Assembly (NCBI RefSeq): GCF_000374165.1
Contig: NZ_KB893739.1
Span: 124,001 to 188,000 of the forward strand
Reading direction: 5' to 3'
DNA: 64,000 bases
Source of the DNA: Parafrankia elaeagni
Lineage (GTDB): Bacteria; Actinomycetota; Actinomycetes; Frankiales; Frankiaceae
Positions 27,123 to 44,459 of this stretch are shown piece by piece. The notes below the pieces were generated by a model. That model was not told where the DNA came from and ran no database searches. It saw only the letters and a list, made by a program, of their open reading frames with translations. Made by a program: the position numbers and the translations under genes. Within the stretch, counting starts at the first letter, position 1. Every line of letters begins with the position of its first letter.

Positions 27123-28007
27123 ATGAGGGTGCGACGGCGCAAGGACCATCTGCACGGCCGCGAGGCGGCGGAGGCGGCTGCCACCGCCGCGCTGAAAGTT
27201 GCCGCCGAAGAGGTGGCGAAGCCCCCGCCGGACGAGTCCGCCGCGGCCTTCTTCGACGTCGACAACACCATGATGGCCGGCGCCTCGATCTTCTACTTCG
27301 CCCGCGGCCTGGCCGCCCGCGACTTCTTCGACTCCCGGGACCTGCTCAAGTTCGGCTGGCAGCACATCAGCTACCGGGTACGTGGCCTCGAGGACCCGAA
27401 CGGCATGCGGGACGCCCGTGAGGCCGCGCTCGCCTTCGTCGCCGGGCGCAACGTCACCGACATCGTCCGCTACGGCGAGGAGATCTACGACGAGCGGATG
27501 GCACAGCAGATCTACTCGGGCACGCACGCCCTGGCCCAGCAGCACCTCGATGCCGGGCAGCGGGTCTGGCTCGTCACCGCGACCCCCGTCGAGCTGGCGT
27601 CCATCGTCGCCCGGCGGCTGAACCTCACCGGCGCGCTGGGCACCGTCAGCGAGGTCGCGGACGGCTGTTACACCGGGCGCCTCGTCGGCGAGCCGCTGCA
27701 CGGGCCGGCCAAGGGCGCGGCCGTGCAGGCACTGGCCGAACGCGAGGGACTCGACCTGGCCCGGTGCTGGGCCTACTCGGACTCGATCAACGATCTGCCG
27801 ATGCTCTCGCTTGTCGGGCATCCGGTGGCCATCAACCCGGATCCCGACCTGCGCGCGGTCGCCAGGGAGCGGGGCTGGCTGATCAAGGACTTCCGCACCG
27901 CCCGCAAGGCGGCCAGGATCGGCATCCCGACGGCCGCCGGGCTCGGCGCCCTCGGCGGCGGCGTGGCCGCCGGTATGGCACTACGCCGCCGCTACGGCGG
28001 AACCTGA
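27123..28007 (+). CDS. HAD-IB family phosphatase
   Basis: A 294-residue hydrolase of the SerB-like HAD-IB class. Motif I is FFDVDNTMM near residue 44, motif II is in WLVTATPVE, the motif III lysine is in [13 protein letters not shown], and motif IV is [11 protein letters not shown]. The C-terminal 25 residues form a glycine/alanine-rich hydrophobic stretch ([14 protein letters not shown]) that could lie on or in the membrane. The phosphorylated substrate is unknown; homologues are often labelled phosphoserine phosphatase-like without proof. It follows the sigma factor after 204 bases, as in related genomes. Confidence 0.85.
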
Positions 28008-28103: not shown

Positions 28104-28133
28104 GGGTAACACCAATGTGGGTGACACCAGTGT
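28104..28133 (+). repeat. 15-bp direct repeat, two copies
   Basis: GGGTAACACCAATGT is followed directly by GGGTGACACCAGTGT, 13 of 15 positions identical. It stands in the 377-base gap between the HAD gene and the inverted element. This gap shows no convincing gene. The pair could be an operator; no adjacent regulator is known. Confidence 0.6.
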
Positions 28134-28438
28134 CGGAAACCAGCCCCAGCCATCGACCGGGACGTCCCGACGACCGTCACGCCAGCCGGACCAGAACTGC
28201 TCCCGGACACGGCGAACGCATCTGGCGCGCACCGGCAGCCGTCAACGGAACGTCCGCACCCACCTGCCGGACGGACGGCGGCCCGCCGAACCGGTCCCAC
28301 CGCGTCGGCGGCGGCCCTCAGGGATGCCGCCAGACGACTGACCAGCCGTTCTCCACACTCCGGAGCAGGGTCGCGCCGAGCATCGGCGGTGGCGGGCAGT
28401 TGTATTGACGATGGAAACTAAAGGGCTCGCCGTGGCCT

Positions 28439-28603
28439 CTACTTTCCGAGGGCTTGCAGAATTCCCACCTCAGCCGCCGTCAAGGTATCCCCCAGAAAGA
28501 CCACAGGAAGGTCATTTCGCCAGGCAAACGGTCCGCCCGACCCCTCCGCTATTGTGTCCAGCGATGTCAGATCCCAGCCGTCACCGGATCGGCGCCGCCG
28601 CAT
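28439..28603 (-). CDS. small orphan protein in the left half of the inverted duplication
   Basis: A 54-residue open frame: after four arginines it reads DGWDLTSLDTIAEGS, then WRNDLPVVFLGD and the tail TLTAAEVGILQALGK. The C-terminal 24 residues align with the end of the rightward frame 28564-28824 (LTAAEVGILQAL against LTSTKVDVLQGL). Codon differences between the copies include silent and conservative changes, which suggests coding history. A TAG ends it 5 codons before the stop used by its partner, so it may be truncated. No ribosome site precedes the ATG, and the frame stays open further upstream. Function unknown. Confidence 0.4.
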   Translation of the reverse strand: MRRRRSGDGWDLTSLDTIAEGSGGPFAWRNDLPVVFLGDTLTAAEVGILQALGK

Positions 28604-28824
28604 CACCAGGCCAGACCATCGGGTTCCACCTTCGGCTGGGCGACCCGAAACCGGGGATCGGCACGCGAGAATCTGGCACCACTGACACCTTTCGCCTCGA
28701 GTTCAGGCCCTCCCCTCAAATGATCGACTTCCTTCGCGTGGCCTTTCCCGAGAATGTCTTGACGTCGACCAAGGTCGATGTTTTGCAAGGCCTCAAGAGT
28801 GAAAGGCCACGGAAAGGTCTTTAG
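28564..28824 (+). CDS. small orphan protein in the right half of the inverted duplication
   Basis: An 86-residue open frame from ATG 28564 to a TAG inside the right inverted arm. It contains TIGFHLRLGDPKPGIG, a DTFRLEFRPSPQMIDFL segment and the tail VAFPENVLTSTKVDVLQGLK. The tail is homologous to the leftward frame 28439-28603, and the two frames overlap at their 5' ends by 40 bases. Composition is more ordinary and less GC-biased than neighbouring genes, a hint of transfer. An upstream in-frame ATG lies in the left arm (28411). No family was recognised. Confidence 0.4.
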   Translation: MSDPSRHRIGAAASPGQTIGFHLRLGDPKPGIGTRESGTTDTFRLEFRPSPQMIDFLRVAFPENVLTSTKVDVLQGLKSERPRKGL

Positions 28825-28857
28825 TTTCCATCGTCGACACATCTGCCCGCCGCCGCC

Positions 28858-29181
28858 CACGCCGTGGGAATCTCGGTCGCGCATCGGAGAATGGCTGTTC
28901 AGCGGCTTGACGGCGCTACCGGAGCCCACGGTCACGAGTGGACGGCACGTCTCGACGGGTCGCCGACGCGCCGTCCACCACCGTCGCGGTCCGAACGACA
29001 TCCACCGGCTTCGGCGGCGGGGCGACCAGCGCCCGGACCGCTCCCCAGCCCAGCGATCATGACTTTCGGCGGCACGTCCGGCAGGCAGCGTGGAGCCGTT
29101 TTCCAACACGGTTGCCACCTTTGCCGACACCGCCTGGGGTCCGCCGGCACGGCCTCCGCCCGGCCCCGCCGGGCGAGTGGT
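28858..29181. other. intergenic region, nothing recognised
   Basis: 324 bases between the inverted element and the acyltransferase stop. Several frames are open but none is protein-like. No repeat or RNA structure was identified. Confidence 0.4.
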
Positions 29182-30477
29182 TCAGAAGAACACCGAGCGG
29201 CGCTGCATCAGCAGGCCGTACAACGTGTGCTGGATCGTCTCCCGGATGCGGTCGGTCAGCTCGAAGACGAGCATCGGGTCGTCGGCCGCGGCCGGCGTGT
29301 AGCCAGCCGTGTCCACCGGCTCACCGAACTCGATGATCCACTTGCTCGGCAGCGGGACAAGGCCGAGCAGGCCCAGCCACGGGAACGTCGGCGTGATCGG
29401 CAGGTACGGCAGCCCCAGCACCCGCGCCAGTGTCCGGGAGTTGCCGATCATCGGGTAGATCTCCTCCGCGCCCACCACGGTGCACGGCACGATCGGCGCC
29501 CCGGCCCGCAGCGCAGCCGAGACGAAACCGCCGCGGCCGAACCGCTGCAGTTTGTACCGTTCACTGAACGGCTTGCCGATGCCCTTGAAGCCCTCCGGCC
29601 ACACCCCGACGAGATGGCCGGCACCGAGCAGCCGCTCGGCGTCCGCCTGACAGGCCAGGGTGTTGCCGGTCTTGCGGGCCAGCGGCGCGAGGAACGGCAC
29701 CGCGAAGACCAGATCGGCGGCGAGCATCCGCAGGTGTCGGTGGGCCGGATGGTGGTCGAGGATGGCCACGGCGGTCATCAGCGCGTCCATCGGGATCGCG
29801 CCGGAGTGGTTCGAGACCACGAGTGCCCCGCCCTGGTCCGGAATGTTCTCCAGCCCCCGGGTCTCGACCCGGAAGTAGCTGCGGTAGATCGGCCGCAGCA
29901 GCGGCGCCACGACATGCTCGGTCAGATCGACGTCGAAGCCGTGCTCGTCCACGGTGTACTCGCCGGTGATGCGGCGGCGGAGGAAGGCCAGCATTTCGGC
30001 CAGCGCCCGCTCCAGATCCCCGGGACCGGCGGCCCGTTCCTCGGCGTCAGCATCGGCCTCGGCCTCGAATCCGCCAGCCGCGGCGATATCGGCGCCGGTG
30101 CCGGTGTCGGTGCCGGTGCCGGTGTCGAATCCGTCCTCGGCACCGACACCGCTCTCCGTCCCGAACTCGAACTCCGACCCGAGCTCGGGTGCAGGGCGGG
30201 GCGGTGGCTCCGCCGTCACCGCGGCAGCGGGCCGGGCCGTGGTCCTGCCCTTCCCACCGCGTGCGATGCGGGAGCCGTTGGCCCGACGCGAGCCGTTCGA
30301 CCCGGCCGACCCGGCCGACCCGGCCGACCCGTTCGATCTCGGCGATCTGGGCTGGTCCGACTGGCCCGCGCCACCGGCGGGCGGGCCGGGGCTCCCCGGC
30401 GTCGCCGGGCCGGTACGTCCCTGCGGCGGCATCGGCACATCGGCCTCTCTCCCCGGCCCTCCGGGCTGGCCGCCCAT
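29182..30477 (-). CDS. PlsC-like lysophospholipid acyltransferase family protein
   Basis: A 431-residue protein. The first 175 residues are disordered and repeat-rich (SAGSAGSAGS from 9-bp repeats, TGTGTDTGTGAD). The acyltransferase domain follows: VVSNHSGAIPMD holds the catalytic His region, GVWPEGFKGIGKPF the acyl acceptor site, and APIVPCTVVGAEE the third block. The His-to-Asp spacing (HSGAIPMD) is longer than the usual HX4D, as in an actinobacterial subgroup. It likely acylates a phospholipid precursor at the inner membrane face. Its ATG overlaps the epimerase stop (ATGA), so the two are co-expressed. Confidence 0.83.
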   Translation of the reverse strand: MGGQPGGPGREADVPMPPQGRTGPATPGSPGPPAGGAGQSDQPRSPRSNGSAGSAGSAGSNGSRRANGSRIARGGKGRTTARPAAAVTAEPPPRPAPELGSEFEFGTESGVGAEDGFDTGTGTDTGTGADIAAAGGFEAEADADAEERAAGPGDLERALAEMLAFLRRRITGEYTVDEHGFDVDLTEHVVAPLLRPIYRSYFRVETRGLENIPDQGGALVVSNHSGAIPMDALMTAVAILDHHPAHRHLRMLAADLVFAVPFLAPLARKTGNTLACQADAERLLGAGHLVGVWPEGFKGIGKPFSERYKLQRFGRGGFVSAALRAGAPIVPCTVVGAEEIYPMIGNSRTLARVLGLPYLPITPTFPWLGLLGLVPLPSKWIIEFGEPVDTAGYTPAAADDPMLVFELTDRIRETIQHTLYGLLMQRRSVFF

Positions 30478-44030: not shown

Positions 44031-44459
44031 AGGTGAATCCTGCCCGCTCGGGCCGGTCCTCGGCCAGTGTCACGGCGTCGTCCCGCAACGCAAAACCCCC
44101 GGGTTTCCACTCTGCCTGGTAGGCGGAGTGGGCCGTCGGGACTGATCGACGGCACCCGGGGGCCCGGTAACTGCCTGGTTCTCGCCGGCGCCGGTGCCCG
44201 AGGGCCACCCGGCAAGGGTGAGGACCACGAGACCGGCTAGCGGACAGTCACCTCACGAGTCCTATGTGCATACAAAGCGCGGACCACCTCCCTTCTCGTG
44301 TACTGGGAACGCTACGCGCGCCATGGGGGGCGCCGCAATCTGTTTTTCGGCGGGCCACCCGCGTCACTCGTCACGGCCTGTTCGCGGTCGCCCGTTGTGG
44401 CCCGGTCGAACGGCAGCCGCATGGCACGGCAACCGCGCGGCACGGCCTAGACTCACTTC
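44031..44459. other. divergent intergenic region gpmA/nur
   Basis: 429 bases with a less GC-rich portion near 44250-44320 that probably contains promoter elements (for example TCCTATGTGCATACAAAG). No Nur or Fur box with clear dyad symmetry was found. No gene is supported here. Confidence 0.4.

Follow-up and report, generated by a model that had tools for sequence, protein, structure and literature searches.

A probable decayed insertion of a MITE-like element, made of two inverted copies of a dispersed repeat, between convergent genes of Parafrankia elaeagni

Introduction

MITEs are short, non-coding and dispersed, have complementary ends and can reach many copies in one genome, and the repeat that we describe here shares all of these properties, lies mostly in intergenic DNA and includes some copies that are nearly identical to one another. 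Unlike a MITE, however, it has no target-site duplication (44 copies), its left end is interrupted by CANNNNTG, it has a long internal hairpin with a loop motif at a fixed step, and at several loci it forms inverted sister pairs. Because one defining feature, target-site duplication, was tested and is not found, we do not file the repeat as a MITE; its behaviour is instead like that of MITEs and foldback elements. The likeness to foldback elements lies in long, two-armed palindromes, which we find in the pair under study and at three further loci (C43, C52 and G001 C108:15k), and in a relative of the pair under study that is without its middle (C117). The repeat differs from them in that the arm also stands alone in most copies, and in that the 5' ends point outward in one pair and inward in three.

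IS200/IS605-derived palindrome-associated elements likewise have hairpins and no target-site duplication, but the ends of the repeat are complementary to each other and there is no fixed target tetranucleotide (in the 5' flank, G stands at -1 in 31/44 copies and at -6 in 35/44). REP/BIME sequences are also intergenic hairpins that sometimes occur as inverted pairs. Their palindromes have a unit size of 20-60, unlike the ~460-bp unit with defined ends seen here. BOX and RUP of the pneumococcus (PMC3049150) resemble the repeat in being small dispersed repeats of a bacterial chromosome, although ours comes from another phylum. The root-nodule actinobacteria of this group have genomes known for many transposases, according to PMC2770080.

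The locus lies in a 64-kb stretch of Parafrankia elaeagni DNA, here called the window. We consider it very probable that a non-autonomous, MITE-like element, consisting of two inverted copies of a ~460-bp repeat, inserted here between two convergent genes and has since decayed. Comparisons within the genus used seven genomes, G000 to G006, of which G000 is the window's own and G001 is that of a sister species.

An inverted duplication inside a larger insert

A preliminary description of the window had reported a 473-bp inverted duplication with near-identical outer arms, weaker similarity further in and an atypical base composition. The duplication is real and these properties hold: the outer arms (Table 1) are inverted copies with 35 matches in 39 positions, including a perfect 17-bp block at 28407-28423, an ungapped inverted repeat reaches 132-nt arms that are 73% complementary, and GC content is 60.5%, compared with 73% for the window. 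No other 39-bp inverted pair with at least 35 matches within ~600 bp occurs across the window, and each of three shuffled windows had none. The limits of 473 bp, however, did not stand, since this is the inner part of an insert of ~1.0 kb (28120-29119) placed between two convergent genes. When gaps are allowed, inverted similarity spans ~28120 to ~29119, with a local score of 94, whereas the highest of 200 single-base shuffles scored 29. The outer flanks by themselves give an inverted score of 35.5, which 1 of 1000 shuffles equalled, and a score of 32.0 when aligned in direct orientation; as this is weak evidence, the nature of the flanks is settled only by other copies of the repeat.

Table 1. 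Positions of the insert's parts and of the flanking genes in the window
Feature	Positions	Strand	Evidence
Left neighbour: HAD-family hydrolase, 3' end facing the insert	27123..28007	+	Pfam PF12710, E 2e-30
Copy A of the ~460-bp repeat, decayed, 5' end outward (left)	28120..28577	+	left end GGTGACACCAGTGTCGGA at 28120
Left 39-bp arm: foot of hairpin A and sequence just upstream	28385..28423	+	
Hairpin region of copy A, decayed	28418..28520	+	fold z 0.26
Spacer separating the two 3' ends; the 129-bp insertion of G001 lies near here	28578..28668	.	
Copy B, inverted relative to A, decayed, 5' end outward (right), 3' limit approximate	28669..29119	-	minus-strand left end 29102-29119
Hairpin region of copy B, partly kept	28723..28824	-	fold z -2.40
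Right 39-bp arm: foot of hairpin B and sequence just upstream	28819..28857	-	
Right neighbour: acyltransferase, 3' end facing the insert	29182..30477	-	Pfam PF01553, E 1.5e-17

Both halves match a repeat dispersed in another species

Plain blastn found the window locus and its orthologue, together with a single partial relative (275 bp, 74%, matching the left outer part, at G001 C117), and is too weak to reach the remaining copies. When the inner arms of G000 and G001 were made into a sequence-only model, it found 64 matches in G006 (E <=0.1) and a few in G003 and G005. With an Infernal model at E <=0.01, 73 rows were obtained in G006, 11 each in G000 and G001, 6 in G003 and 8 in G005, and none either in G002 and G004 or in 29 genomes of six other genera. 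Merged into places, the rows come to 9 in G000, 10 in G001, 5 in G003 and 7 in G005, and the nucleotide profile added one further G000 copy, the second member of the pair at C52. In G006, where only 77 candidates were scored, three of the 73 rows are the same hairpin on the other strand and some could be a single copy seen at two contig ends, so that the copy number is about 70. Thus dispersed copies with conserved ends occur in five of the seven same-genus genomes, and the case of a single copy in all genomes, which the preliminary description had named as counting against its reading, is contradicted, by the profile searches only.

Two models built only from G006 copies, and therefore free of window sequence, recognise both halves of the insert. 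A nucleotide profile of 11 copies matches the window at 28318-28573 (+, 4e-12) and 28916-28732 (-, 7e-8), the next best values being 0.63 in the window, 0.16 in the reversed window and 2.2 in a shuffled one. An Infernal model (R3) of 39 copies matches at 28404-28577 (+, 1.6e-9) and 28817-28731 (-, 3.7e-6), with a next best of 0.087. These models retain some dependence on the window, because the G006 copies were first located with a model of the window and G001 arms; the relationship among the G006 copies across their whole 460 bp is free of it. We conclude from these matches that the window feature consists of copies A and B of the repeat in inverted orientation, their 3' ends facing inward and their 5' ends outward. 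A palindrome formed when unrelated intergenic DNA was duplicated locally in inverted orientation, with no mobile element involved, would fit the observation below that the members of the pair are mutual closest relatives, but is very hard to reconcile with both halves matching profiles of dispersed repeats from another species, and we think it highly improbable.

Extent and setting of the repeat family

The family appears to be confined to the genus. In a class-wide sample of 394 genomes, searched at E <=0.001 with stricter filters, matches fell in the same five genomes, with one weak match elsewhere (G128, E 5.5e-4); we take the latter as chance, and the full profile has no match at its locus (L424) at E <=0.01. 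A pattern for the left end is found at 65 places in G006, compared with 0 for the reversed control, and none of its ten matches in other genera coincides with a profile match. Copies are up to 99.3% alike, a value reached in G006, with a median of 71% over 44 copies, and the high upper value indicates that amplification is partly recent.

Both neighbouring genes could be called, with a home-made codon-composition score, for 39 of 71 copies, of which 23 lie between convergent genes, 15 between genes in the same direction and 1 between divergent genes. This distribution is compatible with insertions being tolerated away from promoters. A lone left end of the repeat stands ~250 bp upstream of a glutamine-synthetase-like gene, named by eye (L341, G006 C6:371772).

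Plasmids and phages were considered as a source and set aside, since the insert has no match in either. Against plasmids, a G006 copy gave a single 37-base match (E 0.01), which we regard as chance, and against phages it gave none. No relative of the right-hand open reading frame was confirmed in IMG/VR, and the profile had no match at E <=0.01 in 30 contigs of that collection that have the left-end pattern.

We found no description of this transposase-less family of root-nodule actinobacteria among the open-access papers searched on Frankia and Parafrankia repeats and on actinobacterial MITEs and palindromic repeats. The terms 'MITE', 'palindrom' and 'non-coding' occur 0 times in PMC2770080, as do Actinobacteria, Streptomyces and Frankia in the main text of PMC10969869, and we found no description of the family in PMC4117964.

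The insert site in related genomes

The locus can be compared directly between occupied and unoccupied states. In five congeners (G002-G006) the gap between the aligned reading frames of the two flanking genes is 35-69 nt, whereas in G000 and G001 it is about 1.18 and 1.27 kb respectively. Two of the seven genomes therefore carry the insert and five keep both genes without it, although the exact boundaries are not readable. Outside the genus, we took 23 loci from the 27 genomes having the gene: gaps of up to ~500 nt were found at 17, gaps of ~1.45 kb at 2, and 4 were unmeasurable. Neither of the genomes with the ~1.45-kb gaps has a match to the repeat model. The HAD protein is 86% identical, over the best segment, to its homologue in Frankia tisae.

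The G001 insert is colinear with that of the window, at 80-87% identity per 120-bp step, and has 129 extra bases near its middle. Between the two species 189 of 1125 positions differ in the insert (17%), as against 2.5-2.8% in the neighbouring genes; the substitutions in the insert are without codon phase, while those in the neighbouring genes do show it. The terminal inverted repeats are also degraded in the window copies. These are old and degraded copies, which at present probably do nothing.

A preliminary description had listed a non-autonomous transposable element among several options, and this is the one that the dispersed copies, the conserved ends and the insert-free site in five of seven congeners bear out.

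Ends and hairpin of the repeat

The repeat is ~460 bp long and non-coding, as defined by a 459-position profile and 44 full-length copies (43 from G006 and one from G003). Its 5' end reads GGTGA(CANNNNTG)TCTGATC and its 3' end GTCAGATCACC, the two being complementary except for the bracketed 8 nt. It thus has terminal inverted repeats with an 8-nt interruption on the 5' side. They form 11 terminal pairs, including one U-G pair, and depending on the pair 34-41 of the 41 aligned copies keep it unchanged. The 5' boundary is sharper than the 3' boundary, in that close pairs of copies share 3' tails, and the flanks are non-random. Two G006 C16 copies that are 99.3% identical (L284/L285) have ~134 bp of 3' flank in common, while their similarity ends ~20 bp outside the 5' end; in this pair the 3' flank may move along with the repeat.

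An internal stem of ~20 pairs is clear from the alignment, with modest covariation. Of 819 cells, 87.8% pair, compared with 39-53% when the two sides are slid by 1-3 columns. Pairing in shuffles was 86.2%, and 2 of 500 shuffles reached 87.8%; changes on both sides of the stem were seen in 33 cells against 19.8 in shuffles (4/500). Neither pairs with double changes (304/500) nor further pair types (494/500) were in excess over shuffles. Six copies were chosen for folding, and the z values were -5.65 and -7.97 for two from G006, -8.88 for G000 C53, -2.61 for G000 C114, -2.40 for window copy B and 0.26 for window copy A, whose hairpin folds no better than shuffles. The C53 copy has a long and nearly perfect stem, in contrast with the decayed window copies.

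Another way to view such a repeat is as a structured RNA or bidirectional terminator that benefits the host from a position downstream of genes, with the window pair as a decayed double terminator. The strong hairpins just described favour this, as do the preference for convergent-gene gaps (23/39) and the presence of the C53 copy (L253) at the same place in G001 C128 (L301), where 1606 bp are colinear at 92.7%; this shared copy has possibly been kept by selection. However, copy number varies from 0 to about 70 inside one genus, near-identical copies occur, and five congeners keep both flanking genes without the window insert. There is also no T-run after the hairpin, as judged by eye, and no Rfam match: the window had none at the repeat at gathering thresholds, and eight loci searched at E <=5 gave three weak matches, all far under the gathering scores. 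A host function of this kind is therefore unlikely to explain the family.

A remnant of a known IS family, for instance an IS21-like element that has lost its transposase gene, was suggested by the outer ends of the window pair, TGTCGGC.AAGGTG.CA, which we take to be reminiscent of IS21-type ends. With up to one mismatch allowed, this pattern occurs at 34 places in 36 genomes and its reverse at 17; the 34 include three already described here, namely the insert, the orthologous insert of G001 and C117. The sole perfect match outside the genus (G009, L096) has no transposase-like neighbour by eye. An IS21-like origin of the ends is thus not supported, and descent from a known IS family seems to us quite improbable.

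The mini-protein reading

The preliminary description had also noted two related peptides, read outward from the centre, and had allowed for a duplicated orphan gene. The reading frames exist, but they do not appear to be conserved as proteins. Between G000 and G001, dN/dS is 0.71 for the right frame part (68 codons) and 0.43 for the left (38 codons), while the neighbouring genes have 0.08 and 0.06; dN of the frames is 0.165-0.18, about 20-36x that of the neighbours, and the left stop is not conserved in G001. The purifying selection expected of a protein-coding gene pair is thus not seen in dN/dS or in the left stop, and no Pfam family matched.

The motif LT....LQ.L that the two peptides share is what TTGC and GTCAA of the hairpin loop give when read in antisense, and TTGC followed by GTCAA at a 25-nt step occurs in 34 of 39 G006 copies (counted by first occurrence). 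The antisense frame is open as far as the hairpin foot in 35 of the 39, but the frame past the motif differs among subfamilies, and we therefore ascribe the open frames to GC content. A gene pair coding for two small related proteins could claim the common motif, the open antisense frames and the lower dN/dS of the left frame, albeit over 38 codons; given the high dN, the absence of codon phasing, the lost stop, the differing frames beyond the motif, the missing Pfam match and the open frames expected at such GC content, we find it scarcely credible. The more general caution is that mirror-image 'mini-proteins' in GC-rich gaps may be hairpin shadows.

Inverted sister pairs

We placed the copies in a 45-tip tree, with ultrafast bootstrap and a midpoint root. 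Window copies A and B form one clade with their G001 orthologues (support 100), from which it follows that the pair was duplicated, or homogenised, before the two species split. Three further loci have inverted copies that are sisters: G000 C43 (support 100; a 903-bp palindrome, 73%), G000 C52 (support 85; 990 bp, 70%) and G001 C108:15.6-17.0 kb (support 100), where 458-bp arms lie 479 bp apart and are 99.8% identical, from one base before the 5' GGTGACG to 44 bases past the 3' ATCACC. The 5' ends point inward in the C43, C52 and C108:15k pairs and outward in the window pair, and hence no one simple unit covers all pairs. Sister copies also occur apart from such pairs, at G003 C5 and G005 C356, where the flanks are unlike. 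Inspection of the 73 G006 rows by eye showed no distinct copies inverted to each other within 2 kb, although breaks at contig ends could hide some.

A relative of the window pair is found at G001 C117, where the left half is A-type (support 97), the right half is B-type (support 63) and the middle is missing. The right half aligns to window B with a score of 31.5, the best of 200 shuffles being 18.5. This one locus suggests that a window-type pair was moved or copied as a whole and subsequently lost its centre.

Two observations concern the C108 contig of G001. The centre of its 99.8% identical inverted copies (L383, 1241-1719) holds a broken methyltransferase-like remnant (PF13649, E 0.12, below cut-off), an arrangement that resembles a composite element. 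Equal-scoring copies in facing orientation also stand at the end of C108 (479146-479311) and at the start of C139 (265-430), and could be a single inverted pair split by a break in the assembly.

Mobility of the repeat

For the repeat as a family we observed dispersal, conserved ends, a hairpin, near-identical copies, an occupied and an unoccupied site, and sister pairs. Among the 44 full-length copies, no target-site duplication was found for lengths of 2-9 at 16 offsets; the best of these 128 tests scored 15/44 at length 2, compared with 9.1 expected. We also inspected 13 of the G006 left ends lying away from the matches of the first model, and found no transposase-bearing copy among them: seven are full copies, one is nearly full, two are cut by contig ends, one is truncated and two are bare remnants.

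We propose that the repeat would be mobilised in trans by a recombinase encoded elsewhere, which would recognise the ends, the hairpin or both. The pair may have formed by inverted duplication of one copy, or its members may have been kept alike by gene conversion, after which the pair could have moved as one element, its outward 5' ends serving as termini. Tentatively, the family could be a mobile non-coding element of a new kind, confined to this genus, that moves without target duplication by way of its conserved hairpin and near-complementary ends, has a mobiliser that belongs to none of the known MITE/IS pairs, and time and again gives rise to inverted sister pairs that become larger mobile units; taken as a whole, this broader proposal strikes us as rather doubtful.

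The significance of the family is that, with from none found to ~70 copies per genome in one genus, with its rarity between divergent genes and with its inverted sister pairs, it offers a system for studying both the mobilisation of such elements and the origin of inverted duplications.

Elsewhere in the window, positions 44087-44301 (-) match Rfam RF02471 (Ms_IGR-5, an actinobacterial sRNA) with 78 bits and E 1.6e-15.
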